Both the position numbers and the translations under genes were made by a program. 44,511 bases of DNA from Coemansia sp. RSA 487 (taxonomy: Eukaryota > Kickxellomycota > Kickxellomycetes > Kickxellales > Kickxellaceae), in NCBI GenBank assembly GCA_027577595.1, contig JANBRJ010000121.1:1-44511 (forward strand). The letters run 5' to 3'. Positions 13,270-37,070 of this stretch are shown piece after piece; within the stretch, counting starts at the first letter, position 1; the number at the start of each line of letters is the position of its first letter. The notes below the pieces were generated by a model. It saw nothing but the letters and a program-made list of their open reading frames with translations. It was not told the origin of the DNA and ran no database searches.

Positions 13270-14337
13270 CTAGCATATTTGGTTAAGGCGGTAGAATCTG
13301 TTTCCAGCACATGGGTCCTTTAAATCTTCCGTAGTTGTTGTAGGAGTAGTTTCAGCAGGAGGCGGAGCTTGTTCTGGTGGTGGGTCTTGTGCTGGCGCCG
13401 GGTTATTCGCTGGTGCCTGTGTCGTCGTCGTAGTGTACGACGTAATTGTTGCTGTCGAGTAAAGTACTTGGGTGCTCAAATAATATGGTTGGAACCTGTC
13501 TAGCGATCGCATAGTCAAAGTTTCTGTAGATGTGCTGCTAATTAGTTTCTGAGTCCAGAGTGCCTCTGTTTGAAGCGATATTTCTATGGATGTGCTTGTT
13601 TCCGTTGTGTAATTGTCAGAAATGGCTGTGCTTAGAACCTCTGGCGCATTGGTAGATTCTGTAACCGTAACTGTGTCGGTCGATGTGGTTGTCACAGTTG
13701 TTAGCATGGTTGATGGCTGCAGCCCATTGAGTGGCTCAATGGTCGTTGTCAATGTAACATATTCAGTGGTGTATGAAACAGACGGTGTAACTGTGGTACC
13801 AGAGAGCACATAGTCCTGGGCATATGCTGTGAGCGTAATGGTGCTCTGTGCGTCGAATGCATCTGTAGAAATCAGAACGCTACCGGGCTCAAATGTAAAG
13901 CCGTATGATGTGTCAATTTCAGTCACCGTTGCAGTTTCAGTTGCGTCGGGATATTCGTAAACTGTTGCATATACCGTTGTTTTTTCTTGCGAAATAAACG
14001 TTTCCGTCGATGGGATAATTGAAGGAGATGACGAGGAAAGAGGTGGTTCAAGCATGCTACTCAATGAGTTTGTCTCAGGCTCTGACTCGAACGAGGAAGA
14101 TGTTTCTTTGTTTGCTGTTCCCTCTGGAAATGAATCCTCTGCCATTGACGTCTCTTTCGATGCTTCGCCTAACGGAAAAAGCAATGAGGCAAATAAATTA
14201 CCATCAAGCTTGGAGTTTGGCGCAAAAAGCGGATCTTCGGTGTACGGGCTGGCATTATTGAATTCATCTTGACAGTGTACTGTAGCTATTTTTGATACAA
14301 GGATAATAGAAAACAACCACACACACGACCTTTTCAT
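13270..14337 (-). CDS. Secreted KETS-family protein with C-x11-C tail
   Basis: The product is 355 aa. It has a signal peptide (MKRSCVWLFSIILVSKIATV), two KETS motifs (GEASKETS and GTANKETS) and the Thr-rich core with the family block YEYPDATETATVTEIDTSY. Later core landmarks are SLQTEALWTQ and TMRSLDRFQPYY. A Pro-rich linker (APANNPAPAQDPPPEQ) leads to a tail with Cys343 and the terminal Cys355. The core DNA (13549-14134) matches 27917-28502 with one visible difference while signal peptide, linker and tail differ. It is extracellular by its signal peptide. The function is unknown; no catalytic domain, membrane span or GPI signal is present. Confidence 0.85.
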   Translation of the reverse strand: MKRSCVWLFSIILVSKIATVHCQDEFNNASPYTEDPLFAPNSKLDGNLFASLLFPLGEASKETSMAEDSFPEGTANKETSSSFESEPETNSLSSMLEPPLSSSSPSIIPSTETFISQEKTTVYATVYEYPDATETATVTEIDTSYGFTFEPGSVLISTDAFDAQSTITLTAYAQDYVLSGTTVTPSVSYTTEYVTLTTTIEPLNGLQPSTMLTTVTTTSTDTVTVTESTNAPEVLSTAISDNYTTETSTSIEISLQTEALWTQKLISSTSTETLTMRSLDRFQPYYLSTQVLYSTATITSYTTTTTQAPANNPAPAQDPPPEQAPPPAETTPTTTTEDLKDPCAGNRFYRLNQIC

Positions 14338-14772
14338 GGTATAGTATACTTGCGAAAAAAAAACCTATGTTCGTTAAAGCTTCTATTAGTATATAAATTG
14401 AAATAATATTAAAATGATAGAGCACAAAGCCAAAGAATAGACACCGTGTTCATTTATTTTTGTCGGTTCATTTGGTTTACACCAAAAGAAAATGCAAAGG
14501 GCGTTTTAAAAAGTTGCTTTACCTTTCTACAAGACACCGCTTCAATAGAAAAAAGTAATATTTAGAATATTCCATTTATATTAGCCTTTACCTTATTATT
14601 TTTTCGGTAAAGGCAAATAACTCAAACAGTAAAGCAAGTCCAACATGCCGAAACCCACGAATACTTGATTAAGCTAAAGAACAAAAAATATATACAATTT
14701 TATTTATAAACTTTTTCATTTATTTTACGCAATTGATAAAACGTATGTTACATTAAACATCAAGCCATTACA
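14338..14772. other. Intergenic region upstream of the 13270-14337 gene
   Basis: About 435 bp, strongly AT-rich. Read on the minus strand, a TATA-like stretch (tttatatactaa) lies near 14385-14397, about 50-60 bp before the start codon at 14337. No gene is visible. Confidence 0.45.
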
Positions 14773-15810
14773 TCACATTATATGTAAGCATTCCCTGTCC
14801 ATTTGCGGGTTTTCTGCACATTTGTCGTTATTGTGAGGTTGGGTTGTAATGCTAGCTGGTAGCTGTTGCTGTGTTGTAGGTTGTTGTTGCTGTGTTGCAG
14901 GCTGCTGTTGCAGAGATGTAGGAGTTGTTGTAGTTATATAGTCCGTTTGGGTTACAGTTGAATGAATGGTTGAAGTTGTTACATAGTAAGGCTCAAACCG
15001 ATCAAGTGAGCGCATAGTTAGTGTTTCGGTAGACGCACTGCCCGGCAACTTTTGAATCCACAATGCTTCCGTCTGGAGTGACATTTGTATTGATGTGCTC
15101 GTTTCCGTTATGTAATAGTCGCTAATGGTTGTGGTGAATATCTCCGTTGCCTGAGTTGATTCTGTAACTGTAGTAACCTCTGTTAACGTTGTTACCGCTG
15201 TTAATATAGTTAATGATTGCAGTTCGTTCAACGGTTCTATGGTTATGGTTGATGTAACATATTGTGTTGAATATGAAGCTGATGGCGTTGATGTAATACC
15301 ATCTAGTGTATTTGCATACAACGTCGCTGTAAGCGTAATTGTGCTCCGTTCGTTTGGTGCTTCCGTACTAATACTAACGTCTCCAGGTACAAATGTAAAC
15401 ATGTAAGATGTGTCAATTTCAGTCACCGTTGCAGTTTCAGTTGCGTCAGGATATTCGTAAACTGTTGCATATACTGTTGTTTTTTCTTGTGAAGTAAACG
15501 TTTCCGTTGAAGGAATAGCTGAAGGAGATGACGAGGAAGGTGGTAACTCAGAAAGTGTGCTTGATAGTTCTTGACCAGATTCGGACATTGAGGATGTCTC
15601 CTTAACTGCATTTCCAGACATAGATGGCACTTCTGGCTCGGATGTTTCCTTTTCAGCTATCCCTGATGGAAATGGAAAGGTATCAAATGGGTCACTGGTA
15701 AATCCATGGCCAGGGATATTTTGTCGATTATAAAATTGTGCTTGATAACATACAATTAAACAATTAAATACAAGGATAGTACTTACGAGAGAGCGTCTAG
15801 TGCTTATCAT
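14773..15810 (-). CDS. Secreted KETS-family protein with C-x9-C tail, left edge of the array
   Basis: The product is 345 aa. Its signal peptide (MISTRRSLVSTILVFNCLIV), N-terminus, two KETS motifs (54-57, 70-73) and first part of the core are shared with the array units to its right. From base 15236 upward the DNA repeats with a 1482-bp period. Below 15236, from about residue 192 on, the gene is unique: the rest of its core resembles the 13270 gene (TMRSLDRFEPYY), the linker is Gln-rich (QQQPATQQQQPTTQQQ), and the tail has Cys331 and Cys341 before LHIM. It donates the 5' half of the chimeric array gene. Confidence 0.85.
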   Translation of the reverse strand: MISTRRSLVSTILVFNCLIVCYQAQFYNRQNIPGHGFTSDPFDTFPFPSGIAEKETSEPEVPSMSGNAVKETSSMSESGQELSSTLSELPPSSSSPSAIPSTETFTSQEKTTVYATVYEYPDATETATVTEIDTSYMFTFVPGDVSISTEAPNERSTITLTATLYANTLDGITSTPSASYSTQYVTSTITIEPLNELQSLTILTAVTTLTEVTTVTESTQATEIFTTTISDYYITETSTSIQMSLQTEALWIQKLPGSASTETLTMRSLDRFEPYYVTTSTIHSTVTQTDYITTTTPTSLQQQPATQQQQPTTQQQLPASITTQPHNNDKCAENPQMDRECLHIM

Positions 15811-16230
15811 GATAGCTTGCTAAATAGTAAACAATTTAAAAATGCTCTTGAAAAAAGTATGTTTAAAAATAATTCAAGAAAAGAAAGTTCTATCGCAGAT
15901 ACGAAAGAAATTTTGCTGGTTCAAATAAAAAGCAACGCATTATGTAAAGCATAATGGTCATTTGCTAGTATAAGGATATTCGACTTTTTATCCATTATAG
16001 CCCTTTATCTTATTGTAATGTAGTGAAGCAGCTAATCTTTGCAAAATCTATCGAGTAAAGTCATGCGACCGCTTATACCCGCTGCTATACATTGGACTGA
16101 AGAAATAAAAATACACCTGTTGTCTCATTTTATACATTGTTGGTTGGCTTTGAACTCTCTTATACATTTTTGTTTTTCTACAGCGTAGTCTGTATTGTAA
16201 AAAATCTACTTTACCTCTTGTCAAATATTG
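15811..16230. promoter_or_regulatory. 420-bp array spacer with promoter, repeated in every unit
   Basis: This spacer carries the promoter of the gene on its left and the 3' region of the gene on its right. Identical copies lie at 17293-17712, 18775-19194, 21105-21524, 22587-23006 and 24069-24488. Read on the minus strand there is a TATA-like GGATAAAAAG about 170-190 bp before the start codon. A 10-mer catgcgaccg at 16062-16071, about 250 bp upstream of the start, recurs at 27425-27434, about 280 bp upstream of the 26109-27143 gene. Each array gene therefore has its own full upstream region. Confidence 0.55.
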
Positions 16231-17292
16231 CTAAACAGTAAAACATGGCATGCCCATTGGAGCATGATTGCAGATAAAGTGTGGACCACCTCGGCCAGCT
16301 GCCGATGAGGATGATGTTGTAGGTTGTGGAGGAGGGTCTTGTTCCGGTGGTGGATTGTTGGCTGGCGGTGGATTATTTGCTGGTGGAGGTGCTGGTGCCT
16401 GAGTGGTGGTTGTGGTATACGATGTAATGGTTGCAATTGACTGAATAGTTGTGGTTGTTTGATAGTAAGGCTGCAACCAATTCAAGGACCTTATCGTAAA
16501 TACATCTGTAGAAGAAGTATAAAAGTTTGTAACCGTCAGCAGTGCCTCTGTTTGTAGTGATATTTCGATGTCAGTACTTGTTTCTGTTTCGTAGAAACCA
16601 CTTACAAGAGTACTAAAAGCAGTTGGCTCTTGTGTAGATTCTGTAGCTGTAGCAGTCTTTGTTAGTGTTGTCGTTACCGTTGTTAATATAGTCGACGCCT
16701 GCAATCTAGCTGACGGCTCTATGGTTATGGTTGATGTAACATATTGTGTTGAATATGAAGCTGATGGCGTTGATGTAATACCATCTAGTGTATTTGCATA
16801 CAACGTCGCTGTAAGCGTAATTGTGCTCCGTTCGTTTGGTGCTTCCGTACTAATACTAACGTCTCCAGGTACAAATGTAAACATGTAAGATGTGTCAATT
16901 TCAGTCACCGTTGCAGTTTCAGTTGCGTCAGGATATTCGTAAACTGTTGCATATACTGTTGTTTTTTCTTGTGAAGTAAACGTTTCCGTTGAAGGAATAG
17001 CTGAAGGAGATGACGAGGAAGGTGGTAACTCAGAAAGTGTGCTTGATAGTTCTTGACCAGATTCGGACATTGAGGATGTCTCCTTAACTGCATTTCCAGA
17101 CATAGATGGCACTTCTGGCTCGGATGTTTCCTTTTCAGCTATCCCTGATGGAAATGGAAAGGTATCAAATGGGTCACTGGTAAATCCATGGCCAGGGATA
17201 TTTTGTCGATTATAAAATTGTGCTTGATAACATACAATTAAACAATTAAATACAAGGATAGTACTTACGAGAGAGCGTCTAGTGCTTATCAT
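16231..17292 (-). CDS. Chimeric array gene, copy 1: secreted KETS-family protein, C-x8-C tail
   Basis: The product is 353 aa. Residues 1 to about 190 equal the 14773-15810 protein (same signal peptide, KETS motifs at 54-57 and 70-73, first part of the core). The remainder equals the right-edge gene at 24489: TITIEPSARLQAS, SLQTEALLTVTNFYTSS, TIRSLNWLQPYYQ, a Pro/Asn-rich linker with PPPANNPPPANNPPPEQ, then Ser-Ala-Gly residues and a tail with Cys341 and Cys350 before FTV. It is extracellular by its signal peptide, has no GPI or membrane segment, and its abundant Thr/Ser suggests heavy O-glycosylation. The function is unknown. The junction of the two parental halves lies in the 314-bp shared core. 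Confidence 0.9.
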   Translation of the reverse strand: MISTRRSLVSTILVFNCLIVCYQAQFYNRQNIPGHGFTSDPFDTFPFPSGIAEKETSEPEVPSMSGNAVKETSSMSESGQELSSTLSELPPSSSSPSAIPSTETFTSQEKTTVYATVYEYPDATETATVTEIDTSYMFTFVPGDVSISTEAPNERSTITLTATLYANTLDGITSTPSASYSTQYVTSTITIEPSARLQASTILTTVTTTLTKTATATESTQEPTAFSTLVSGFYETETSTDIEISLQTEALLTVTNFYTSSTDVFTIRSLNWLQPYYQTTTTIQSIATITSYTTTTTQAPAPPPANNPPPANNPPPEQDPPPQPTTSSSSAAGRGGPHFICNHAPMGMPCFTV

Positions 17293-17712
17293 GATAGCTT
17301 GCTAAATAGTAAACAATTTAAAAATGCTCTTGAAAAAAGTATGTTTAAAAATAATTCAAGAAAAGAAAGTTCTATCGCAGATACGAAAGAAATTTTGCTG
17401 GTTCAAATAAAAAGCAACGCATTATGTAAAGCATAATGGTCATTTGCTAGTATAAGGATATTCGACTTTTTATCCATTATAGCCCTTTATCTTATTGTAA
17501 TGTAGTGAAGCAGCTAATCTTTGCAAAATCTATCGAGTAAAGTCATGCGACCGCTTATACCCGCTGCTATACATTGGACTGAAGAAATAAAAATACACCT
17601 GTTGTCTCATTTTATACATTGTTGGTTGGCTTTGAACTCTCTTATACATTTTTGTTTTTCTACAGCGTAGTCTGTATTGTAAAAAATCTACTTTACCTCT
17701 TGTCAAATATTG

Positions 17713-18774
17713 CTAAACAGTAAAACATGGCATGCCCATTGGAGCATGATTGCAGATAAAGTGTGGACCACCTCGGCCAGCTGCCGATGAGGATGATGTT
17801 GTAGGTTGTGGAGGAGGGTCTTGTTCCGGTGGTGGATTGTTGGCTGGCGGTGGATTATTTGCTGGTGGAGGTGCTGGTGCCTGAGTGGTGGTTGTGGTAT
17901 ACGATGTAATGGTTGCAATTGACTGAATAGTTGTGGTTGTTTGATAGTAAGGCTGCAACCAATTCAAGGACCTTATCGTAAATACATCTGTAGAAGAAGT
18001 ATAAAAGTTTGTAACCGTCAGCAGTGCCTCTGTTTGTAGTGATATTTCGATGTCAGTACTTGTTTCTGTTTCGTAGAAACCACTTACAAGAGTACTAAAA
18101 GCAGTTGGCTCTTGTGTAGATTCTGTAGCTGTAGCAGTCTTTGTTAGTGTTGTCGTTACCGTTGTTAATATAGTCGACGCCTGCAATCTAGCTGACGGCT
18201 CTATGGTTATGGTTGATGTAACATATTGTGTTGAATATGAAGCTGATGGCGTTGATGTAATACCATCTAGTGTATTTGCATACAACGTCGCTGTAAGCGT
18301 AATTGTGCTCCGTTCGTTTGGTGCTTCCGTACTAATACTAACGTCTCCAGGTACAAATGTAAACATGTAAGATGTGTCAATTTCAGTCACCGTTGCAGTT
18401 TCAGTTGCGTCAGGATATTCGTAAACTGTTGCATATACTGTTGTTTTTTCTTGTGAAGTAAACGTTTCCGTTGAAGGAATAGCTGAAGGAGATGACGAGG
18501 AAGGTGGTAACTCAGAAAGTGTGCTTGATAGTTCTTGACCAGATTCGGACATTGAGGATGTCTCCTTAACTGCATTTCCAGACATAGATGGCACTTCTGG
18601 CTCGGATGTTTCCTTTTCAGCTATCCCTGATGGAAATGGAAAGGTATCAAATGGGTCACTGGTAAATCCATGGCCAGGGATATTTTGTCGATTATAAAAT
18701 TGTGCTTGATAACATACAATTAAACAATTAAATACAAGGATAGTACTTACGAGAGAGCGTCTAGTGCTTATCAT
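17713..18774 (-). CDS. Chimeric array gene, copy 2
   Basis: The 353-aa translation is identical to copy 1, including tail and spacer. No difference was found by eye, so this copy may have been placed by the assembler rather than sequenced separately. Confidence 0.85.
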   Translation of the reverse strand: MISTRRSLVSTILVFNCLIVCYQAQFYNRQNIPGHGFTSDPFDTFPFPSGIAEKETSEPEVPSMSGNAVKETSSMSESGQELSSTLSELPPSSSSPSAIPSTETFTSQEKTTVYATVYEYPDATETATVTEIDTSYMFTFVPGDVSISTEAPNERSTITLTATLYANTLDGITSTPSASYSTQYVTSTITIEPSARLQASTILTTVTTTLTKTATATESTQEPTAFSTLVSGFYETETSTDIEISLQTEALLTVTNFYTSSTDVFTIRSLNWLQPYYQTTTTIQSIATITSYTTTTTQAPAPPPANNPPPANNPPPEQDPPPQPTTSSSSAAGRGGPHFICNHAPMGMPCFTV

Positions 18775-19194
18775 GATAGCTTGCTAAATAGTAAACAATT
18801 TAAAAATGCTCTTGAAAAAAGTATGTTTAAAAATAATTCAAGAAAAGAAAGTTCTATCGCAGATACGAAAGAAATTTTGCTGGTTCAAATAAAAAGCAAC
18901 GCATTATGTAAAGCATAATGGTCATTTGCTAGTATAAGGATATTCGACTTTTTATCCATTATAGCCCTTTATCTTATTGTAATGTAGTGAAGCAGCTAAT
19001 CTTTGCAAAATCTATCGAGTAAAGTCATGCGACCGCTTATACCCGCTGCTATACATTGGACTGAAGAAATAAAAATACACCTGTTGTCTCATTTTATACA
19101 TTGTTGGTTGGCTTTGAACTCTCTTATACATTTTTGTTTTTCTACAGCGTAGTCTGTATTGTAAAAAATCTACTTTACCTCTTGTCAAATATTG

Positions 19195-20123
19195 CTAAAC
19201 AGTAAAACATGGCATGCCCATTGGAGCATGATTGCAGATAAAGTGTGGACCACCTCGGCCAGCTGCCGATGAGGATGATGTTGTAGGTTGTGGAGGAGGG
19301 TCTTGTTCCGGTGGTGGATTGTTGGCTGGCGGTGGATTATTTGCTGGTGGAGGTGCTGGTGCCTGAGTGGTGGTTGTGGTATACGATGTAATGGTTGCAA
19401 TTGACTGAATAGTTGTGGTTGTTTGATAGTAAGGCTGCAACCAATTCAAGGACCTTATCGTAAATACATCTGTAGAAGAAGTATAAAAGTTTGTAACCGT
19501 CAGCAGTGCCTCTGTTTGTAGTGATATTTCGATGTCAGTACTTGTTTCTGTTTCGTAGAAACCACTTACAAGAGTACTAAAAGCAGTTGGCTCTTGTGTA
19601 GATTCTGTAGCTGTAGCAGTCTTTGTTAGTGTTGTCGTTACCGTTGTTAATATAGTCGACGCCTGCAATCTAGCTGACGGCTCTATGGTTATGGTTGATG
19701 TAACATATTGTGTTGAATATGAAGCTGATGGCGTTGATGTAATACCATCTAGTGTATTTGCATACAACGTCGCTGTAAGCGTAATTGTGCTCCGTTCGTT
19801 TGGTGCTTCCGTACTAATACTAACGTCTCCAGGTACAAATGTAAACATGTAAGATGTGTCAATTTCAGTCACCGTTGCAGTTTCAGTTGCGTCAGGATAT
19901 TCGTAAACTGTTGCATATACTGTTGTTTTTTCTTGTGAAGTAAACGTTTCCGTTGAAGGAATAGCTGAAGGAGATGACGAGGAAGGTGGTAACTCAGAAA
20001 GTGTGCTTGATAGTTCTTGACCAGATTCGGACATTGAGGATGTCTCCTTAACTGCATTTCCAGACATAGATGGCACTTCTGGCTCGGATGTTTCCTTTTC
20101 AGCTATCCCTGATGGAAATGGAA
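19195..20123 (-). CDS. Chimeric array gene, copy 3, 5' end lost in the N gap
   Basis: The 3' part is identical to copy 1 down to the stop at 19195. By the 1482-bp period its start should lie at 20256, but the sequence runs into the N run at 20124, so about 133 bp of the 5' end (signal peptide) are missing. This is an assembly gap, not a biological truncation. Confidence 0.85.
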
Positions 20124-20133
20124 NNNNNNNNNN
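20124..20133. other. Assembly gap of 10 N inside the array
   Basis: Ten N join a point in the 5' part of one unit to a point in the 3' part of another. If the period holds, they stand for about 644 bp: 133 bp of coding 5' end, the 420-bp spacer and 91 bp of coding 3' end. Any number of whole units could also be missing. Confidence 0.95.
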
Positions 20134-21104
20134 GGTTGTGGAGGAGGGTCTTGTTCCGGTGGTGGATTGTTGGCTGGCGGTGGATTATTTGCTGGTGGAG
20201 GTGCTGGTGCCTGAGTGGTGGTTGTGGTATACGATGTAATGGTTGCAATTGACTGAATAGTTGTGGTTGTTTGATAGTAAGGCTGCAACCAATTCAAGGA
20301 CCTTATCGTAAATACATCTGTAGAAGAAGTATAAAAGTTTGTAACCGTCAGCAGTGCCTCTGTTTGTAGTGATATTTCGATGTCAGTACTTGTTTCTGTT
20401 TCGTAGAAACCACTTACAAGAGTACTAAAAGCAGTTGGCTCTTGTGTAGATTCTGTAGCTGTAGCAGTCTTTGTTAGTGTTGTCGTTACCGTTGTTAATA
20501 TAGTCGACGCCTGCAATCTAGCTGACGGCTCTATGGTTATGGTTGATGTAACATATTGTGTTGAATATGAAGCTGATGGCGTTGATGTAATACCATCTAG
20601 TGTATTTGCATACAACGTCGCTGTAAGCGTAATTGTGCTCCGTTCGTTTGGTGCTTCCGTACTAATACTAACGTCTCCAGGTACAAATGTAAACATGTAA
20701 GATGTGTCAATTTCAGTCACCGTTGCAGTTTCAGTTGCGTCAGGATATTCGTAAACTGTTGCATATACTGTTGTTTTTTCTTGTGAAGTAAACGTTTCCG
20801 TTGAAGGAATAGCTGAAGGAGATGACGAGGAAGGTGGTAACTCAGAAAGTGTGCTTGATAGTTCTTGACCAGATTCGGACATTGAGGATGTCTCCTTAAC
20901 TGCATTTCCAGACATAGATGGCACTTCTGGCTCGGATGTTTCCTTTTCAGCTATCCCTGATGGAAATGGAAAGGTATCAAATGGGTCACTGGTAAATCCA
21001 TGGCCAGGGATATTTTGTCGATTATAAAATTGTGCTTGATAACATACAATTAAACAATTAAATACAAGGATAGTACTTACGAGAGAGCGTCTAGTGCTTA
21101 TCAT
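20134..21104 (-). CDS. Chimeric array gene, copy 4, 3' end lost in the N gap
   Basis: The start at 21104 and the sequence down to the Pro-rich linker match copy 1. The final roughly 91 bp, coding the end of the linker and the two-cysteine tail, fall in the N gap. The tail type of this copy is therefore unknown. Confidence 0.85.
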
Positions 21105-21524: not shown

Positions 21525-22586
21525 CTAAACAGTAAAACATGGCATGCCCATTGGAGCATGATTGCAGATAAAGTGTGGACCACCTCGGCCAGCTGCCGAT
21601 GAGGATGATGTTGTAGGTTGTGGAGGAGGGTCTTGTTCCGGTGGTGGATTGTTGGCTGGCGGTGGATTATTTGCTGGTGGAGGTGCTGGTGCCTGAGTGG
21701 TGGTTGTGGTATACGATGTAATGGTTGCAATTGACTGAATAGTTGTGGTTGTTTGATAGTAAGGCTGCAACCAATTCAAGGACCTTATCGTAAATACATC
21801 TGTAGAAGAAGTATAAAAGTTTGTAACCGTCAGCAGTGCCTCTGTTTGTAGTGATATTTCGATGTCAGTACTTGTTTCTGTTTCGTAGAAACCACTTACA
21901 AGAGTACTAAAAGCAGTTGGCTCTTGTGTAGATTCTGTAGCTGTAGCAGTCTTTGTTAGTGTTGTCGTTACCGTTGTTAATATAGTCGACGCCTGCAATC
22001 TAGCTGACGGCTCTATGGTTATGGTTGATGTAACATATTGTGTTGAATATGAAGCTGATGGCGTTGATGTAATACCATCTAGTGTATTTGCATACAACGT
22101 CGCTGTAAGCGTAATTGTGCTCCGTTCGTTTGGTGCTTCCGTACTAATACTAACGTCTCCAGGTACAAATGTAAACATGTAAGATGTGTCAATTTCAGTC
22201 ACCGTTGCAGTTTCAGTTGCGTCAGGATATTCGTAAACTGTTGCATATACTGTTGTTTTTTCTTGTGAAGTAAACGTTTCCGTTGAAGGAATAGCTGAAG
22301 GAGATGACGAGGAAGGTGGTAACTCAGAAAGTGTGCTTGATAGTTCTTGACCAGATTCGGACATTGAGGATGTCTCCTTAACTGCATTTCCAGACATAGA
22401 TGGCACTTCTGGCTCGGATGTTTCCTTTTCAGCTATCCCTGATGGAAATGGAAAGGTATCAAATGGGTCACTGGTAAATCCATGGCCAGGGATATTTTGT
22501 CGATTATAAAATTGTGCTTGATAACATACAATTAAACAATTAAATACAAGGATAGTACTTACGAGAGAGCGTCTAGTGCTTATCAT
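21525..22586 (-). CDS. Chimeric array gene, copy 5
   Basis: The 353-aa translation is identical to copy 1. Its start lies 1482 bp from those of copies 4 and 6. Confidence 0.85.
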   Translation of the reverse strand: MISTRRSLVSTILVFNCLIVCYQAQFYNRQNIPGHGFTSDPFDTFPFPSGIAEKETSEPEVPSMSGNAVKETSSMSESGQELSSTLSELPPSSSSPSAIPSTETFTSQEKTTVYATVYEYPDATETATVTEIDTSYMFTFVPGDVSISTEAPNERSTITLTATLYANTLDGITSTPSASYSTQYVTSTITIEPSARLQASTILTTVTTTLTKTATATESTQEPTAFSTLVSGFYETETSTDIEISLQTEALLTVTNFYTSSTDVFTIRSLNWLQPYYQTTTTIQSIATITSYTTTTTQAPAPPPANNPPPANNPPPEQDPPPQPTTSSSSAAGRGGPHFICNHAPMGMPCFTV

Positions 22587-23006: not shown

Positions 23007-24068
23007 CTAAACAGTAAAACATGGCATGCCCATTGGAGCATGATTGCAGATAAAGTGTGGACCACCTCGGCCAGCTGCCGATGAGGATGATGTTGTAGGT
23101 TGTGGAGGAGGGTCTTGTTCCGGTGGTGGATTGTTGGCTGGCGGTGGATTATTTGCTGGTGGAGGTGCTGGTGCCTGAGTGGTGGTTGTGGTATACGATG
23201 TAATGGTTGCAATTGACTGAATAGTTGTGGTTGTTTGATAGTAAGGCTGCAACCAATTCAAGGACCTTATCGTAAATACATCTGTAGAAGAAGTATAAAA
23301 GTTTGTAACCGTCAGCAGTGCCTCTGTTTGTAGTGATATTTCGATGTCAGTACTTGTTTCTGTTTCGTAGAAACCACTTACAAGAGTACTAAAAGCAGTT
23401 GGCTCTTGTGTAGATTCTGTAGCTGTAGCAGTCTTTGTTAGTGTTGTCGTTACCGTTGTTAATATAGTCGACGCCTGCAATCTAGCTGACGGCTCTATGG
23501 TTATGGTTGATGTAACATATTGTGTTGAATATGAAGCTGATGGCGTTGATGTAATACCATCTAGTGTATTTGCATACAACGTCGCTGTAAGCGTAATTGT
23601 GCTCCGTTCGTTTGGTGCTTCCGTACTAATACTAACGTCTCCAGGTACAAATGTAAACATGTAAGATGTGTCAATTTCAGTCACCGTTGCAGTTTCAGTT
23701 GCGTCAGGATATTCGTAAACTGTTGCATATACTGTTGTTTTTTCTTGTGAAGTAAACGTTTCCGTTGAAGGAATAGCTGAAGGAGATGACGAGGAAGGTG
23801 GTAACTCAGAAAGTGTGCTTGATAGTTCTTGACCAGATTCGGACATTGAGGATGTCTCCTTAACTGCATTTCCAGACATAGATGGCACTTCTGGCTCGGA
23901 TGTTTCCTTTTCAGCTATCCCTGATGGAAATGGAAAGGTATCAAATGGGTCACTGGTAAATCCATGGCCAGGGATATTTTGTCGATTATAAAATTGTGCT
24001 TGATAACATACAATTAAACAATTAAATACAAGGATAGTACTTACGAGAGAGCGTCTAGTGCTTATCAT
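23007..24068 (-). CDS. Chimeric array gene, copy 6
   Basis: The 353-aa translation is identical to copy 1. It is the last whole unit before the right-edge gene. Confidence 0.85.
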   Translation of the reverse strand: MISTRRSLVSTILVFNCLIVCYQAQFYNRQNIPGHGFTSDPFDTFPFPSGIAEKETSEPEVPSMSGNAVKETSSMSESGQELSSTLSELPPSSSSPSAIPSTETFTSQEKTTVYATVYEYPDATETATVTEIDTSYMFTFVPGDVSISTEAPNERSTITLTATLYANTLDGITSTPSASYSTQYVTSTITIEPSARLQASTILTTVTTTLTKTATATESTQEPTAFSTLVSGFYETETSTDIEISLQTEALLTVTNFYTSSTDVFTIRSLNWLQPYYQTTTTIQSIATITSYTTTTTQAPAPPPANNPPPANNPPPEQDPPPQPTTSSSSAAGRGGPHFICNHAPMGMPCFTV

Positions 24069-24488: not shown

Positions 24489-25571
24489 CTAAACAGTAAA
24501 ACATGGCATGCCCATTGGAGCATGATTGCAGATAAAGTGTGGACCACCTCGGCCAGCTGCCGATGAGGATGATGTTGTAGGTTGTGGAGGAGGGTCTTGT
24601 TCCGGTGGTGGATTGTTGGCTGGCGGTGGATTATTTGCTGGTGGAGGTGCTGGTGCCTGAGTGGTGGTTGTGGTATACGATGTAATGGTTGCAATTGACT
24701 GAATAGTTGTGGTTGTTTGATAGTAAGGCTGCAACCAATTCAAGGACCTTATCGTAAATACATCTGTAGAAGAAGTATAAAAGTTTGTAACCGTCAGCAG
24801 TGCCTCTGTTTGTAGTGATATTTCGATGTCAGTACTTGTTTCTGTTTCGTAGAAACCACTTACAAGAGTACTAAAAGCAGTTGGCTCTTGTGTAGATTCT
24901 GTAGCTGTAGCAGTCTTTGTTAGTGTTGTCGTTACCGTTGTTAATATAGTCGACGCCTGCAATCTAGCTGACGGCTCTATGGTTATGGTTGATGTAACAT
25001 ATTGTGTTGAATATGAAGCTGATGGCGTTGATGTAATACCATCTAGTGTATTTGCATACAACGTCGCTGTAAGCGTAATTGTGCTCCGTTCGTTTGGTGC
25101 TTCCGTACTAATACTAACGTCTCCAGGTACAAATGTAAACATGTAAGATGTGTCAATTTCAGTCACCGTTGCAGTTTCAGTTGCGTCAGGATATTCGTAA
25201 ACTGTTGCATATACTGTTGTTTTTTCTTGTGAAGTAAACGTTTCCGTTGAAGGAATAGCTGAAGGAGATGACGAGGAAGGTGGTAACTCGGAAAGTGTGC
25301 TTGATAGTTCTTGACCAGATTCGGACATTGAGGATGTCTCCTTAACTGCAGTCCCAGACAGAAATGGCACTTCTGGCTCGGATGTTTCCTTTTCAGCTGT
25401 TCCAAATGGAAATGGCAAGGTATCAAATGAGTCACTGATAGTCTCTACGCTGGGAATATGATCTCTACCATGCATATAAACCAAACCACCATGCAGCCGC
25501 GCATAGCAGCAAGTCAGTTGAATGCTGATCACATAAAAAAGCCCAGTTAAAAGATGTACCAGTTTTACCAT
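24489..25571 (-). CDS. Secreted KETS-family protein with C-x8-C tail, right edge of the array
   Basis: The product is 360 aa. It has a different signal peptide from the array genes (MVKLVHLLTGLFYVISIQLT) and a different N-terminus (LVYMHGRDH, then PFPFGTAEKETS and SGTAVKETS). From base 25289 downward it equals the array units, including the SARLQAS region, the Pro/Asn linker and the tail Cys348-x8-Cys357-FTV. It is the apparent donor of the 3' half of the array gene. Beyond 25290 it still matches the units closely to about 25350 and then diverges. Confidence 0.87.
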   Translation of the reverse strand: MVKLVHLLTGLFYVISIQLTCCYARLHGGLVYMHGRDHIPSVETISDSFDTLPFPFGTAEKETSEPEVPFLSGTAVKETSSMSESGQELSSTLSELPPSSSSPSAIPSTETFTSQEKTTVYATVYEYPDATETATVTEIDTSYMFTFVPGDVSISTEAPNERSTITLTATLYANTLDGITSTPSASYSTQYVTSTITIEPSARLQASTILTTVTTTLTKTATATESTQEPTAFSTLVSGFYETETSTDIEISLQTEALLTVTNFYTSSTDVFTIRSLNWLQPYYQTTTTIQSIATITSYTTTTTQAPAPPPANNPPPANNPPPEQDPPPQPTTSSSSAAGRGGPHFICNHAPMGMPCFTV

Positions 25572-26108: not shown

Positions 26109-27143
26109 TTACATCCTATGCTGGCATTGTAAAAGCATTTGTGGTGGCATTCCGACGCAGTAGTCAAAGGGATCGCCTCCATAACGGGTTGATGGCGACG
26201 ATGATATGCTTGTAGGATTATTCTCCTCTGTTGGTGGCGGTGGTGGTGGCTGTGGTGGCTGTGGCTCTGGCGGAGCTGTGGTTGTTGTTGTTGTATAGGT
26301 AGTGTACGTATAAGTAGAATAAATATATGAAGTGTCTAGGTAGTACGGTCTATTCCGCACAAGCGAGTTGACCGTAATGTAATCAACTGACAATCCATCA
26401 ACATTTGTAATGGTCAAAAGCACCTCCGTTTGAAGGGATATTTCAGTTAGGATGCTTGACTCAGTTGTGTAGTAGTCGTTGGTTATTACCCGGTAAACCT
26501 CGGGTGCCTGTGTCGATTCTGATACAGTGATAGTATCCGTCATTGTTGTTGTAACAGTCGTAACTACTGTTGCTGGTTGCAGCTCACTCAATGGCCCGAT
26601 TGTTATTGTGGATGTGAAATACTCTGTGGTATATGAGACTTTTGGCGCAATTGTAACACCAGATAGTACATACGCCTGCTCATATGCTGTAAGAGTAATC
26701 GTGCTTTGAAGTCCAGGGGACTCTGTTTCAACAATGACGTTGCCAACATCGAAGGTGAAAAGATACGATGTCTCTATTTCTGTGACCGTTGCAGTCATCG
26801 AGGCATCTGAAACCTCAAGTACAGTTGTGTATGCTGCTACTTTGTCTAGAGATGTATACGTTATAGTAGAAGTAATTTCTAAAGCTGAAGGCGGCAACCC
26901 AATTAATGACGTACTGGTTGGCTCTAGCTCGGAAGTTGAGCTGAATGGTAAAGATGTTTCTTTCAATGCAATTCCTGTCGGAAATGGAATGCTATCAAAT
27001 ATGCCACTACCAGTTTTGCCTCTAAATCTATGCTCTCTATTAAGCATGTAAACCCCCTCTTCGTAAGCCTTCACTAGTGGTTGACTCTGAAAGATGCTTG
27101 TTAGCAAAACAAAGCAATGAAATAACCATGCTGCAGTTGACAT
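26109..27143 (-). CDS. Secreted KETS-family protein with C-x10-C tail, diverged core
   Basis: The product is 344 aa. It has a signal peptide (MSTAAWLFHCFVLLTSIFQS), then VYMLNRE, which parallels LVYMHGR and LVYVHKR in two neighbours, and one motif PTGIALKETS. The core has the same layout but is clearly diverged (MTATVTEIETSYLFTF, VSYTTEYFTSTITIGP, SLQTEVLLTITN). The linker is PEPQPPQPPPPPPTEENN. The tail has Cys329 and Cys340 before QHRM. It is not part of the homogenised set, so it shows which core positions are constrained: the Tyr, the TATVTEI and the SLQTE segments persist. Confidence 0.85.
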   Translation of the reverse strand: MSTAAWLFHCFVLLTSIFQSQPLVKAYEEGVYMLNREHRFRGKTGSGIFDSIPFPTGIALKETSLPFSSTSELEPTSTSLIGLPPSALEITSTITYTSLDKVAAYTTVLEVSDASMTATVTEIETSYLFTFDVGNVIVETESPGLQSTITLTAYEQAYVLSGVTIAPKVSYTTEYFTSTITIGPLSELQPATVVTTVTTTMTDTITVSESTQAPEVYRVITNDYYTTESSILTEISLQTEVLLTITNVDGLSVDYITVNSLVRNRPYYLDTSYIYSTYTYTTYTTTTTTAPPEPQPPQPPPPPPTEENNPTSISSSPSTRYGGDPFDYCVGMPPQMLLQCQHRM

Positions 27144-27613: not shown

Positions 27614-28705
27614 TCATCCGCCAACAAGAATACAACGTGCATTAATCCCTCCAAAGTAGAAACATTCCAAGCTGCCACTACTTGATGAACTAGATATTGA
27701 AGACGGGCTCAGACTATTGGTATCCTGCTGATTCTGAGGAGGTGGCTGTTGTTGTTCTTGTTGCTGTTGCTGTGGCGTGGGAGTAGGAGTTGTTGTAGTT
27801 GTATAAACATTTTGTATGTATGTGGTAGAAATGAATTTAGTACTCACAAAATTTGGTTGGAACCTGTCTAGCGATCGCATGGTATTTACTTCTGTAGATG
27901 TTCCATTAATCAACGTCTGAGTCCAGAGTGCCTCTGTTTGAAGCGATATTTCTATGGATGTGCTTGTTTCCGTTGTGTAATTGTCAGAAATGGCTGTGCT
28001 TAGAACCTCTGGCGCATTGGTAGATTCTGTAACCGTAACTGTGTCGGTCGATGTGGTTGTCACAGTTGTTAGCATGGTTGATGGCTGCAGCCCATTGAGT
28101 GGCTCAATGGTCGTTGTCAATGTAACATATTCAGTGGTGTATGAAACAGACGGTGTAACTGTGGTACCAGAGAGCACATAGTCCTGGGCATATTCTGTGA
28201 GCGTAATGGTGCTCTGTGCGTCGAATGCATCTGTAGAAATCAGAACGCTACCGGGCTCAAATGTAAAGCCGTATGATGTGTCAATTTCAGTCACCGTTGC
28301 AGTTTCAGTTGCGTCGGGATATTCGTAAACTGTTGCATATACCGTTGTTTTTTCTTGCGAAATAAACGTTTCCGTCGATGGGATAATTGAAGGAGATGAC
28401 GAGGAAAGAGGTGGTTCAAGCATGCTACTCAATGAGTTTGTCTCAGGCTCTGACTCGAACGAGGAAGATGTTTCTTTGTTTGCTGTTCCCTCTGGAAATG
28501 AAGCTTCCACCTCAGATATTTCCTTAATAGCTGTTCCTATTGGAAAAACTACTGTGTCGAACTGGTCGCTTGTAGTTTCAAGAGAAGCAGCAGTTTCGCG
28601 CTTATGAACATATACTAAACTATTATAGCGTTGTCCTTGACATGAGATCCATGTAAAGTTGGCTATAAACAAAACGCACATCAAACACCTGGCAAGTATT
28701 GTCAT
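27614..28705 (-). CDS. Secreted KETS-family protein with C-x9-C tail, core shared with the 13270 gene
   Basis: The product is 363 aa with a signal peptide (MTILARCLMCVLFIANFTWI), then LVYVHKRE, GTAIKEIS and GTANKETS. The core from 27917 to 28502 matches 13549-14134 with one visible base difference (28194 against 13826, Glu against Ala). Outside that block the two genes differ: here the linker is Gln-rich (PTPTPQQQQQEQQQPPPQ), followed by Ser residues and a tail with Cys348 and Cys358 before ILVGG. The pair is 14.4 kb apart with the whole array between them. Confidence 0.87.
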   Translation of the reverse strand: MTILARCLMCVLFIANFTWISCQGQRYNSLVYVHKRETAASLETTSDQFDTVVFPIGTAIKEISEVEASFPEGTANKETSSSFESEPETNSLSSMLEPPLSSSSPSIIPSTETFISQEKTTVYATVYEYPDATETATVTEIDTSYGFTFEPGSVLISTDAFDAQSTITLTEYAQDYVLSGTTVTPSVSYTTEYVTLTTTIEPLNGLQPSTMLTTVTTTSTDTVTVTESTNAPEVLSTAISDNYTTETSTSIEISLQTEALWTQTLINGTSTEVNTMRSLDRFQPNFVSTKFISTTYIQNVYTTTTTPTPTPQQQQQEQQQPPPQNQQDTNSLSPSSISSSSSSGSLECFYFGGINARCILVGG

Positions 28706-29465
28706 ATTTCGTTAATAATTTGTAGTTAGAAACATAAGTGTAATGGTAAAGTAAGCAGACAAATAAATCTATCAATAAAGCAAAGAATGGAGCTTTTGTG
28801 CGTAATATTCCAACTTTTCAACTAGGTAAAATGGGCTCCGAATGTAGATGGAAGAAACATGCGCATTAGAAATATTAGTCATGTAATATAAAAGGTAGAT
28901 AATATACGCTTTGTATCCTTTGTATTGCTCGAGCAAAAACAAAGGAGCTCTTTGCTCTAAAAACAGGGTGAACATTGGATTGTACAAAGCTAGTTAGTTC
29001 GCGGCACGCACATTTCCATATACGCTCTGCATTCAGCACAATAGTTTTCTTTTTCGAAAATGAAAAGAATCATTAGTTTTGGCTGGAGTTTGGGCAAGAA
29101 AGCATTGGTGTTTAGATGGACTAACTAATTATTGCTATGCTAGAATCCAGACTGATGTTTTTGCAGGAGAAACTCTCGCCATTCATGGACAGGGCAGCAA
29201 ATTCTTTTGTGAGGCTTATCAGTACTAACGCTCTACACGAGAGATAGGCTATAAGAGGGGTAATGCTGCTTGCTGCTATCCTCGATAAAAACAGGACGTA
29301 TAAAGACGCCCTTTACGTAAATGATTTTGTCGGGCATGGCAAAAAATGAGGTTGCTTAAAGACGAGGTACAATATGGTAAGTGCTACAAGCAGGAAAAAT
29401 TGACGCGGTAATGTAATGTAATTTAGATTCCCTCTCCTCGATTGTTTTTTTGCTACACATTAAAA
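28706..29465. other. Intergenic region
   Basis: About 760 bp upstream of the 27614-28705 gene. It is AT-rich with no credible gene; a minus-strand frame at 28772-28987 is of intergenic composition and has no features. Confidence 0.45.
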
Positions 29466-29808
29466 TTAACAAAATAAAATAATTATAAAGCATAAACGTG
29501 CAAGCAACTGGAAATGGAGATTGAAATATGATACATGATTACAAACAGACAAAACAGAAGCTTGGCGCTTACATTATTGTACTGACATTCAACATTATCG
29601 AACCCCCGTTGAGCGCCCACTTTGCATACGGCCCGCCGTAAATGGAGGTACTGGAGTTCTTGTGGAGTGCACGCATAGGCATAGTAGTATCTGCTATCAT
29701 TCAGCTTATCATCATCATTTTCTGGACAGACTGGAACATGGAAGTTGAGCGATATCTGCACAGACTCGCCGACAGCAGCCTCAGAACTGTCAAGTTTATT
29801 GTTGGTAG
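29466..29808 (-). pseudogene. Possible exon remnant or 3' part of a spliced gene
   Basis: A minus-strand open frame without an in-frame ATG has protein-like content with several Cys (HVPVCPENDDDKLNDS, YACTPQELQ, NVECQYNN). A good acceptor (TTAAC then TGTTTTGCAG) could start an exon at 29808. A GTAAGC donor after NVECQYNN and an ATTTCCAG acceptor define a 65-nt intron (29508-29572). The frame then continues in phase for 14 codons of hydrophobic sequence (LLARLCFIIILFC) to a stop at 29466. No convincing first exon is found, so it could be a remnant. A plus-strand 79-aa frame (29642-29881) overlaps it and is the alternative reading. Confidence 0.3.
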
Positions 29809-30143
29809 CTGCAAAACACCAGTTAATGAGGTGGCCACTGAGCAAATTCGTGCCAGAGAAAGCCACAGGTTAACCAAATAAACATAATAATATGAACTAT
29901 ATATTGCTTTCTTTATTTTTTGGTTTGAAGTTATGATATAATATACGTGCTTTTGTGCAAGTTAGGAACATATTAACATACGTGGTAGGATATTGACTAT
30001 CCGCTTTATTTATACATTCTATAAACTTAATAAACATTCCTTAAACAGCATGCTATCCTTAGTATATGTGATTCTTTGTTATGTCTGTGTGAAGCTACGT
30101 TATATAATTGGCTCATTACTTTACCTTTCCATCCCTTGGCTAA

Positions 30144-30569
30144 CTAAAATAAATCCAGGCATCCACGCCCAGAACCCGCCTGACATCTGATAATTGCGGT
30201 ATCGGCTGGAGGGTCTTCCTGTTTGGCTGGAGGGTCTTCCTTATCAGCTGGAGGGTCTTCTTGTTCGACTGGAGGTTCCCTTTGTTCAATGGTGGTAGAT
30301 GTGGTAGAGGATGTAGAAACTGAAGAGGTTGTTGGTGTGGGGTTAGGCATTGGAGTTGAAGCTGACATGCTAGATGATTCTAATCTGGATGATGAATTGG
30401 ATATAGTTTGAGTCTTGATAGACGTATAACTGGTTATTGTATGTACGTTGGATGTTGTTAATGTGGTAGTTAGGGTAATTGTTCGTTGATAATAGATAGA
30501 ACTTCCGAAAGAAAGGTCCAAACAAAGGAAAATAGCCAAAATAAAGTAAAATGAGGACAATAGCTGCAT
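30144..30569 (-). CDS. Minimal secreted protein: signal peptide, Thr-rich segment, DPPA repeats, C-x7-C tail
   Basis: The product is 141 aa. It has a signal peptide (MQLLSSFYFILAIFLCLDLS), a short Thr/Ser-rich stretch (TITLTTTLTTSNVHTITSY) and then a linker of four near-repeats (EPPVEQ, EDPPADK, EDPPAKQ, EDPPADT). The tail is CQAGSGRGCLDLF with Cys129 and Cys137. The KETS motifs and the large core are absent. It looks like a stripped-down version of the neighbouring family that keeps only secretion signal, stalk and cysteine loop. The start opens the signal peptide and there is no intron. Confidence 0.75.
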   Translation of the reverse strand: MQLLSSFYFILAIFLCLDLSFGSSIYYQRTITLTTTLTTSNVHTITSYTSIKTQTISNSSSRLESSSMSASTPMPNPTPTTSSVSTSSTTSTTIEQREPPVEQEDPPADKEDPPAKQEDPPADTAIIRCQAGSGRGCLDLF

Positions 30570-31096
30570 ACTAATAATGTAATAAGTTATTCAAAGAAGA
30601 AAAATTAAGTGAACAATATTTTTCCAAAGTCCAGCATCACGAAATTTATATTTATTCAAGGCTAACAATTTTTCCACAGTACGGTAAAGGATTGAGCAAA
30701 CTTTCAATAGATACAGATACAGCCCACATGCTTGGCTTCCAAATGACAATGCCATGAAGTATCTGTTTCAGAGTCTCTGTTGGCACATTATTTCCGAATA
30801 AAAATTCACAATTCGACAAACGTAGTTGCAATACATTATCTCCAATAGTACACTGGCAGATTATCTAAAGCAACACTCTAATTATTATATATGTTATTAT
30901 ATTTATTGAATGTATTTGCAGTTTAGATATATATATGGCTCAAATAATTTGTTTATTGGAAATGGATGCGTAAGAAAAAATAAATGAAAAATGCCTACAA
31001 ACCAGTGTAATGTGAAAATCCACTTATACTTGCGGAATACATGTATATACTAGTTATTCTAATAGCAAAGCACATTAATTGTGAGGTAGCTTGCGT
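30570..31096. other. AT-rich intergenic region
   Basis: About 530 bp, strongly AT-rich with tatata runs near 30885-30935. No gene is visible. Confidence 0.45.
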
Positions 31097-31321
31097 CTAC
31101 ATTACACTATTCAAAATGTAGCCTGTGCCAACGTCACTGATGGTTGTAATTTGTGTACTTGTACATGTTTCCGTAGTATAAACGCTATAATTAGCATCTG
31201 TAGGAAAGCTGGAATTGCTTGCAGTATAATATAAATTGCTGGCGATTGTGCTAACTGGTGTCATATATCCCAGATTTCCTGGAATACTAGAAAGTATTTG
31301 AACCACTGTGATAGCAGCCAT
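31097..31321 (-). CDS. Short, possibly decayed paralogue of the 31853-32401 gene
   Basis: Translation from the ATG at 31321 gives 74 aa. The segment GYMTPVSTIASN aligns with GYRTPITAISSN of the gene to its right, and the following Thr/Ser residues also correspond. The frame is open far upstream (to 31672), but that part is hydrophobic AT-rich sequence of intergenic type. A 3' splice-like tract (TTTTTTATTCTAG) lies just upstream near 31335, so a spliced first exon with the signal peptide is possible. The partner's low-complexity C-terminus is missing. It is either a short gene with an unseen exon or a truncated copy. Confidence 0.45.
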   Translation of the reverse strand: MAAITVVQILSSIPGNLGYMTPVSTIASNLYYTASNSSFPTDANYSVYTTETCTSTQITTISDVGTGYILNSVM

Positions 31322-31852
31322 AGAATCATTAATCACAACTAGAATAAAAAATAAAAATATGAAATAGTTGTGATATCTTGTATGTTGAAGAATAGATTTT
31401 CTGCTAGATAATGAATGAAAGCAAGAAAGAAAAATGACATTATACTCCTGTAAACCATGGCTATTTATAAACATGCTTAAAATGTGCAGTGTCACTCTTT
31501 GATATACATTTTGATCATCAACAGACATGTATTTTACTGTCACAATGCTAATGACAATATCCAATTCTACATTTTTCAACATTTGCCAATTTAGCCATAT
31601 AATGTAAAAACTAGTCAAGATGGATAAAAAAGCATTATGAAAGGAATATAAAAGGAAAGTATGTGATTTCAAGTGTTGTTATTAACAAAATCATCAAATA
31701 ATAACTTCTGATTTATTCTTCGTGGTAAAAAGCTTATAAAGAGCTATAAAACATGTGTTGTATAATGGAATATACCATTCACCCTTTGTCATAAACCTCA
31801 GCCCATTTTGTAACATGTACCATAGCACGTTAATGGTGATGGAAAATATGCA

Positions 31853-32401
31853 TTACTTTAATATAGCTTTTGGAAGATCACCAGGGCCATTAATTAATCC
31901 AAATAGGGGATTCTTGTCAAAATTGGTAGATGAGGAAATAGATGTTGATGTTGATGTTGATGTTGGTGTTGGTGTTGGTGTTGGTGTTGGTGTTGGTGTT
32001 GGTGTTGGTGTTGGTGTTGGTGTTGGTGTTGGTGTACTAGATGGCATTGTCATAAAAACAGAATTGGTTATTCTAATAGCAGTGCATACAGATGGCGAAT
32101 TTGTTTCAGAAGACATATAACTAGCAGCTATTCTAATGGCAGCACATACTGATGGTGAATTTGCTTGTATCTGTGTTGGGCTAATCTGAGTTTCATCGGA
32201 ACCATCATTCTTTATGGTTGCAGTGTATATACGTGTGCCTGTTACTGTGCTAGCGTAACTACTACCCATGTCAGCAAGAAGACTGGGGCCGCCTGCGGCT
32301 TGCTCTACATTACTGGAGATTGCGGTAATTGGTGTTCTATATCCTAGTGTGGCAGCACTAACAAATAATGCAAGAGTGAGAAGATGTGAATTTCGCACCA
32401 T
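31853..32401 (-). CDS. Secreted protein with a Thr-Pro dipeptide stalk
   Basis: The product is 182 aa with a signal peptide (MVRNSHLLTLALFVSAATLG), followed by YRTPITAISSN, which is shared with the 31097 gene. An internal duplication reads NSPSVCAAIRIAAS and then NSPSVCTAIRITNS. A (TP)n run and a (TS)n run come next, and the end is NPLFGLINGPGDLPKAILK with no cysteine tail. The TP/TS run is encoded by the hexanucleotide tract at about 31937-32034. It is probably extracellular and heavily O-glycosylated; the function is unknown. Confidence 0.7.
   Translation of the reverse strand: MVRNSHLLTLALFVSAATLGYRTPITAISSNVEQAAGGPSLLADMGSSYASTVTGTRIYTATIKNDGSDETQISPTQIQANSPSVCAAIRIAASYMSSETNSPSVCTAIRITNSVFMTMPSSTPTPTPTPTPTPTPTPTPTPTPTPTSTSTSTSISSSTNFDKNPLFGLINGPGDLPKAILK
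31937..32034. repeat. Hexanucleotide microsatellite inside a coding region
   Basis: Tandem TTGATG/TTGGTG-type hexamers form about 16 units. They code on the minus strand for alternating Thr-Ser and Thr-Pro. The six-base period preserves frame, so slippage would change stalk length without breaking the gene. Confidence 0.85.
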
Positions 32402-32754
32402 CGTAAGGCCTGGTTAATAAAAACTTTTGGAAAAAGCTGGGAAAAAAGAGAAAAAGCAAAATTAGCATCATCTTCAACCATGACTATTTATGTGTAAGCT
32501 TGAATTTTGCAATGGGTTATTTATCTCTTTTTGAGTGTTGATGGATACAGATTGTGCATTTGTGATTTAGTTGATGCTTTCCAATTCTACTTTATTCAGG
32601 ATGTGGAAATTTGGTTGTGTTGATCAAATAAGAATCAGAATAAAAATAGAGAAAATGGCTGAGATAATGTAATGAGTAAAAAAGTAAGTGTTGTCAAAAG
32701 TTGCTACATTAACAAAATTGCCAGCAAAACTGTGAAGTAGCAAACAATTTGAAA
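32402..32754. other. AT-rich intergenic region
   Basis: About 350 bp between two minus-strand genes. No gene is visible. Confidence 0.45.
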
Positions 32755-33312
32755 CTACATGTATGGCATACAACGTTTGTTACGTTTGTTGTAAACACCA
32801 ACACAGTCAATAAAGGACTTGCTTGAGCTTGAGCTAGAGCTAGTAGTTACACTTGTGCTTGTGCTTGTGCTTGTGCTTGTAGTATCACCTGGACTCGGAC
32901 TTGTGCTTGTGGTTGATGCACTTGAGTTAGTAGTTTGAGTGCTCATTATGAATGTGCTTGTTGTGGATGTGGTAAACAAACCATCATCTGCTGATGTGTT
33001 GGTAATCAAGACAGCAGAATATGCCTTTCCATAGCCAGATGAGCCAGCAAAAATACTATGAGCAAGATCATAGCTTGTTGGAACGTGAGCATTGGTGAAT
33101 ATCAAGGTGGTGGTTCTTGTAACAGTAGGTCTGCCTTCAGTTGGTTTATCAATGCCAGCACCATTTTCTCCAAATGTCGACTGCTCCACTGCACTTGCGC
33201 TGGTAGTTAGGGAAGACATGTTAGTAGCATATTGGTCCGCTTGTGCTGTAGCAAATATCAACAGACCCATAAATGCTATTAATGAAAATGTATAGTGAGT
33301 TGGTCTAAACAT
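32755..33312 (-). CDS. Secreted Ser/Thr-rich protein with C-x10-C tail
   Basis: The product is 185 aa with a signal peptide (MFRPTHYTFSLIAFMGLLIF), a mid region with TRTTTLIFTNAHVPTSYD and AYSAVLITNTSAD, and a long Ser/Thr stalk (TSTSTSTSTSVTTSSSSSS). The tail SFIDCVGVYNKRNKRC ends MPYM, with Cys170 and Cys181. The tail resembles that of the 26109 gene (CVG at its start, C-x3-Met at its end) although the rest of the protein does not. It lacks KETS motifs. The shared tail on an unrelated stalk supports the tail as the functional element. Confidence 0.75.
   Translation of the reverse strand: MFRPTHYTFSLIAFMGLLIFATAQADQYATNMSSLTTSASAVEQSTFGENGAGIDKPTEGRPTVTRTTTLIFTNAHVPTSYDLAHSIFAGSSGYGKAYSAVLITNTSADDGLFTTSTTSTFIMSTQTTNSSASTTSTSPSPGDTTSTSTSTSTSVTTSSSSSSSKSFIDCVGVYNKRNKRCMPYM

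Positions 33313-37034: not shown

Positions 37035-37070
<36 letters not shown>

Follow-up and report, generated by a model that had tools for sequence, protein, structure and literature searches.

A cluster of secreted-looking Ser/Thr-rich proteins ending in short cysteine loops in the fungus Coemansia sp. RSA 487

Tail genes and their mosaic structure

An AT-richer island of minus-strand genes for secreted-looking proteins spans ~10.2–34.1 kb of a 44,511-nt stretch of contig 121 of Coemansia sp. RSA 487 (the window); the genome searched alongside it comprises 17.79 Mb in 184 contigs. Measured in 2-kb steps, the GC content of the island is 0.34–0.44; of the ten steps that flank it, nine have 0.49–0.62 and one has 0.44. 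Within the island, seven distinct minus-strand proteins, named here by the first coordinate of their genes, end in C-x(7–11)-C followed by 0–5 residues. The initial annotation had described this arrangement, and its coordinates, strand and spacings were all confirmed.

Five of the seven types (13270, 14773, the array type, 26109 and 27614) form one family. Specifically, 13270 (13270–14337, 355 aa) ends in CAGNRFYRLNQIC (x11, 13270–13311), in which the second cysteine is the last residue, and 14773 (14773–15810, 345 aa) ends in CAENPQMDRECLHIM (x9, 14773–14820), with four residues after the second cysteine. The array type (16231–17292, 353 aa) carries the tail CNHAPMGMPCFTV (x8, three residues after). 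The core of 26109 (26109–27143, 344 aa), the most divergent among the five types, precedes the tail CVGMPPQMLLQCQHRM (x10, four residues after, 26109–26159), while 27614 (27614–28705, 363 aa), whose core is nearly identical to that of 13270, ends in CFYFGGINARCILVGG (x9, five residues after, 27614–27664). The remaining two types are short proteins for which no relatives were found: 30144 (30144–30569, 141 aa) with the tail CQAGSGRGCLDLF (x7, four residues after, 30144–30185), and 32755 (32755–33312, 185 aa), in which a Ser/Thr stalk leads to CVGVYNKRNKRCMPYM (x10, four residues after, 32755–32805). Additionally, the minus-strand gene 11963 (11963–12847) is a weak relative of the family, with 37% identity to 24489 (E 5.4e-4) and a P-x-G-x-A-x-KETS motif in common, and contains neither the linker nor the cysteine tail.

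The array is built from a 1482-bp unit. Its four complete minus-strand copies (16231, 17713–18774, 21525–22586 and 23007–24068) are identical, the intergenic part included, and two further minus-strand copies border a 10-N assembly gap (20124–20133), one lacking its 5' part (19195–20123) and the other its 3' end and tail (20134–21104), so that the copy number is uncertain. The unit matches 14773 exactly from 420 nt ahead of the coding sequence (CDS) through CDS nt 575, and matches 24489 (24489–25571, minus strand, 360 aa) exactly from CDS nt 262 through the stop codon and the 420-nt 3' flank. Beyond these tracts the resemblance is lost: just 138 of 420 upstream positions are shared between the array unit and 24489, which has another promoter and N-terminus, and 33 of the first 100 positions of the 3' flank between the array and 14773, which has its own C-half. 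The array gene is a hybrid: its promoter and N-half are those of 14773, and everything from its C-half onward, with the tail and the 3' flank, is that of 24489. One promoter with the first ~190 residues carries two different C-halves and tails, and one C-half carries two different N-ends. On the coding strand the order is 24489, array, 14773; together with the identities above, this is the product expected of one unequal crossing-over. The array probably originated in such an event between neighbouring 24489-type and 14773-type genes, within CDS nt 262–575, followed by amplification.

A second exchange is suggested by 13270 and 27614, which lie ~13 kb apart. From CDS nt 203 to ~780 they differ at one site, and outside this tract they are strongly diverged; over 135 core codons there are no synonymous changes and one non-synonymous change. 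The shared core marks a conversion tract. The pattern of a conserved core with a variable tail arises largely from recombination overwriting the middle of the genes.

The terminal cysteine loop

In all seven types the cysteines outside the terminal pair lie at or before residue 22, in a region that, judged by eye, we take for signal peptide. After the signal peptide, 24489, 26109 and 27614 contain a VYMHGRD, VYMLNRE or VYVHKRE segment at residues ~30–38, which suggests a putative cleaved pro-segment. Ser and Thr make up 0.29–0.41 of the residues of the tail types, and the maximal 15-residue hydropathy of their C-terminal ends is −0.56 to 1.26, that is, there is no hydrophobic C-terminus. These values, with the N-terminal hydrophobic segment recognised by eye, support the earlier description of a Ser/Thr-rich stalk ahead of the tail and of proteins without a glycosylphosphatidylinositol (GPI) or membrane signal. 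Proteins of the GPI-anchored ALS/EPA/FLO type were likewise rejected by hydropathy, not by a dedicated GPI predictor, as the ends here consist of the cysteine loop plus 0–5 residues. The linkers ahead of two tails, those of 14773 and 30144, are built from 21-bp tandem repeats (14864–14930 and 30202–30275), and stalk length may therefore vary by slippage.

Introns are present in places in the genome, as judged by eye (L028). One of the seven tail genes (27614, within the core) has a match to a simple 5'-splice-site consensus among the final 240 nt of its CDS, and splicing-out of the tails, which the initial annotation had raised, is for this reason not suggested at the sequence level and is disfavoured.

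How often such a tail would be met by chance was judged from several backgrounds. The window has 105 open reading frames (ORFs) of 60 aa or more, and 17 of them fit the pattern: 12 represent the tail genes with their array copies, and 5 lie in the GC-rich flank (35.7–41.3 kb), one of them (41048, 74 aa) likewise without another cysteine. In eight other stretches of the genome, with the same lower limit of 60 aa, 9 of 233 ORFs fit. Among ORFs of at least 100 aa from 13 stretches (129 kb; 12 picked by contig number and one, L029, picked around RPB2), the pattern is found in 6 of 185, and a single ORF of the 185 shows it without other cysteines beyond residue 30; by eye, this ORF runs antisense to a chaperonin-like frame. 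Random codons at the base composition of the island gave the pattern in 1.5% of 20,000 trials. Of the 11 secreted-looking types recognised by eye in the island, a count that omits 29483 and the decayed-looking 31097, seven bear the tail and four (10263, 11963, 31853 and 33793) do not. Because five of the seven types are homologous, there are about three independent occurrences of the tail.

The loops had been called unrelated, but they are not wholly so. Neither the opening three residues of the loop nor those that follow the second cysteine are more similar among the seven tails than in within-tail shuffles (36% and 74% of 20,000 shuffles, respectively, reach the observed similarity). The last four loop residues depart modestly from this, their similarity being reached by 0.5% of 20,000 shuffles, a test made after the motif had already been noticed by looking: M, I or L stands at the fourth residue before the second cysteine in all five core-family types. 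When all three portions are summed, 3.8% of the shuffles reach the observed similarity.

Net charge downstream of the first tail cysteine ranges from −2 to +4. Such a spread would suit precursors of secreted disulfide-ring peptides that are cut off the stalk, in the manner of pheromones, toxins or ribosomally synthesized and post-translationally modified peptides, and the succession of signal peptide, long pro-region and C-terminal ring resembles the plan of peptide-hormone precursors. However, no dibasic pair precedes the first tail cysteine within the last 60 residues of any of the seven types (by inspection), on which ground Kex2-processed precursors were rejected, and the 20 window frames in the Pfam scan include no processing or modifying enzyme except a membrane-bound trypsin-like protein (941–2284). 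Release of the ring from its stalk is thus improbable.

The rest of the island and its flanks are of mixed content. An ORF at 29483–29866 (minus strand) with several cysteines and perhaps small introns is a possible small secreted cysteine-containing protein. The minus-strand frame at 31853–32401 contains an internal duplication of an SPSVC-x-AIRI motif, and its Thr-Pro repeat is built from a hexanucleotide; 31097–31672 (minus strand), which has an LGY-x-TP...SN stretch in common with it and no clean start, looks like a decayed copy. At the island edge, 33793–34080 (minus strand) encodes a small, cysteine-free protein that looks secreted and contains AKRDE, a Kex2-like site. By Pfam, one flank contains PTH2, the trypsin-like membrane protein, a GH16 protein and a FunK1 kinase, and the opposite flank a BED/NIF3 protein, TUG/UBX and an MFS transporter; the BED zinc finger and the NIF3 domain are fused in a single open frame (34637–38257, minus strand). 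The gene content of the genome is fungal: a 960-aa RPB2 piece from one locus has PDB chain 3h0g_B (S. pombe) as its top match, with a lead of 58 bits over the runner-up, and the scarcity of introns, the FunK1 kinase and the membrane trypsin would tentatively suit the Kickxellales.

Divergence of the tails and rival explanations

We compared synonymous and non-synonymous changes (dN/dS) in 15 gene pairs, which are not independent, as two gene pairs share a core. In the core, dN/dS is 0.14–0.32 in the 13 of these 15 that yield a ratio, the other two having 0 or 1 change, and the core is under purifying selection. The proportion of non-synonymous differences is 0.36–0.51 for linker and tail in 14 of 15 pairs (0 for 16231 versus 24489) and 0.43–0.59 for the signal and N-terminal segment, again in 14 of 15 (0 for 14773 versus the array); in both end segments synonymous sites are mostly saturated and the alignments forced, and the contrast with the core is inflated by conversion. 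Because of this saturation and forced alignment, diversifying or positive selection on the tails is not shown by the 15 comparisons. The comparison of tails with core, which the initial annotation had put forward as a check, therefore gave no positive selection on the tails. Its picture of variable tails on a stalk gains direct evidence in one respect, since the hybrid array shows an identical N-half with different tails, and is not supported as it stood in another, the tails being no more diverged than the signal and N-terminal segments.

These measurements may be read as relaxed constraint: the types would be old paralogues with a generic capped C-terminus, their tail variability drift and their uniform core gene conversion. 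That the signal and N-terminal parts have diverged as far as the tails, that saturation leaves positive selection unmeasurable and that 11963 has no tail all fit this account. Retention of the cysteine pair and its spacing in seven of seven types, including the two proteins without detected relatives, speaks against it, and we regard it as doubtful. The cysteine pair survived where nearly all else changed.

A further explanation, which we rank second and hold only tentatively, is anchoring, in which disulfides would tie one or both tail cysteines to other proteins of the wall, leaving the intervening residues nearly unconstrained. It would account for the lack of a hydrophobic C-terminus and for cysteines that are retained while most of the loop changes, and it has a disulfide-tethered precedent in Aga2 (PMC6023273). 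The GH16 proteins of the genome bear on it. Five C-termini were read among seven GH16 matches (3808–4857, L039, L040, L043 and L044), and none of the five has a two-cysteine tail; two (L040 and L044) look GPI-like by eye, as no tail type does. In two others, 3808–4857 (minus strand) and L039, a stalk rich in Ser/Thr/Gly is followed by one cysteine in a QKC context and then by 8 or 11 residues, and these single near-terminal cysteines lend anchoring some weight. One cysteine would suffice for a tether, however, and a pair placed 7–11 residues apart in every type would suit an intramolecular ring better. Moreover, Map4, the precedent for the layout, is not freed from walls by reduction (PMC6023273).

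Proposed outward display of the ring and known systems

Our preferred reading, to which we give a probability of about 0.45 and which we rank first, is that the tail types are adhesin-like proteins of the wall or matrix, rich in Thr and without a GPI anchor, whose terminal disulfide loop would face outward. The layout, the cysteine pair and the mosaic genes are seen directly, as is, within the reach of the searches, the lack of a match elsewhere; from the sequences we infer the disulfide state, the glycosylation, the wall location, the outward display and the binding role. The reading is supported by the terminal cysteine pair, which is kept at narrow spacing in all seven types, even in ends that are synonymously saturated. 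The purifying selection on the core, the hybrid array, the tract common to 13270 and 27614, and the occurrence of GPI-like ends in L040 and L044 but in no tail type also count in its favour. As we picture it, secreted Ser/Thr-rich proteins from this single locus, probably O-glycosylated, would sit in the fungal wall or matrix. Each would begin with a signal peptide and a short N-terminal segment, continue through a Thr-rich core and a linker of Pro/Gln or Ser/Thr type, and end in a ring of 9–13 residues, which would be closed by one disulfide and would point away from the wall. The core would supply length and association with wall or matrix, and the loop with its free C-terminus would be the portion that contacts partners. 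The locus would evolve through exchanges within the core, by unequal crossing-over and by gene conversion, which would homogenise the cores and recombine N-halves with tails, and the 1482-bp array would be one such recombination hybrid, afterwards amplified.

Several observations weigh against outward display. The tails have diverged no further than the signal and N-terminal segment, and the weak relative 11963 ends in VTNTVTV. Nothing scored above the curated cut-off of Pfam in 13270 and 27614 (searched at E<=0.01) or in 16231, 26109, 30144 and 32755 (E<=1), nor above that of NCBIfam in 13270, 26109, 30144, 32755 and 11963, and neither 13270 nor the A1 profile matched any PDB sequence; function is therefore not indicated by any family. 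AlphaFold gave no usable model of A1 (seven sequences, with 26109 as query; mean pLDDT 31.7).

Two sub-threshold hits were taken as chance: Ntox8 on 32755, which at E 0.14 reached 12.8 bits where the cut-off is 25, and an amidase model on 30144, which at E 0.024 reached 13.1 bits where 839 are required. Whole-genome protein searches with 27614, 11963, 32755, 30144, the 26109 tail and 10263 found no convincing match beyond this contig, the sole outside matches being a large Gln/Pro-containing protein (E 0.63) and one at E 9.5; such a search scores the best candidates only and may under-score simple sequence, so that distant Ser/Thr-rich relatives could be missed. A scan of viral_contigs with A1 yielded 202 stretches with the pattern, of which none was confirmed. 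In the literature (titles and abstract starts), no family with such a tail appeared among the matches listed, which is weak evidence of absence.

The statement that no named family has this layout is nevertheless too strong. The nearest published layout is that of the non-GPI flocculins of Schizosaccharomyces (Map4, Mam3 and relatives), which have a secretion signal, Ser/Thr repeats and no GPI signal, and which expose at the surface of the wall a C-terminal DIPSY domain that is required, with its cysteines, for aggregation (PMC6023273). They appear to share with the tail types the plan of a Ser/Thr-rich stalk, no GPI and a C-terminal module; theirs, however, is a named domain, whereas here the module is a 9–13-residue cysteine ring of variable sequence for which no Pfam family was found. 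At E<=1, Pfam gave no adhesin-domain match in 26109, 16231, 30144 and 32755, the presence of the DIPSY model in that Pfam being unchecked. In the Aga2/Sag1 and Als systems, Sag1 and Als recognise a short C-terminal peptide ligand with a free carboxylate (PMC4791367), and the tail proteins would likewise present a free C-terminus. In contrast, Aga2 is a small subunit that disulfides join to a GPI protein (PMC6023273). Als and Sag1 bear N-terminal Ig-like binding domains.

Three other classes of protein were set aside. No Pfam family that could represent an N-terminal adhesin ligand domain was found in 13270 and 27614 (E<=0.01) or in 16231 and 26109 (E<=1), 14773 and 24489 lying outside the scan. 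The EPA, ALS and FLO adhesins are recombining tandem families with repeat-built stalks and mosaic genes, as here; they are GPI-anchored, with N-terminal ligand domains (PA14, Als-N, Flo11-like), whereas at this locus the terminal loop travels with the C-half. PIR cell-wall proteins have PIR repeats and a conserved C-terminal cysteine domain, and CBM1 cellulose-binding tails comprise ~36 residues with four cysteines and conserved aromatics after a Ser/Thr/Pro linker. Both were rejected, as no Pfam family passed the cut-off (in six types for PIR) and the proteins have only two cysteines beyond residue 22.

An extension of outward display is combinatorial, and we consider it unlikely. Recombination in the core would shuffle disulfide rings onto common promoters and N-halves, strains would differ in the set of rings they show, partner cells or prey would use these sets as tags for recognition, and 30144 and 32755 would be separate carriers of such tags. 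If the loops are functional ligands, the locus would represent a natural small-ring peptide display, with rings recombined among promoters and N-halves at one site, and a fungal counterpart of variable-antigen or allorecognition loci. Even if they are not, the locus clearly illustrates how a hybrid gene produced by crossover can be amplified into an array, and it cautions that conversion can produce a conserved core with a variable end.

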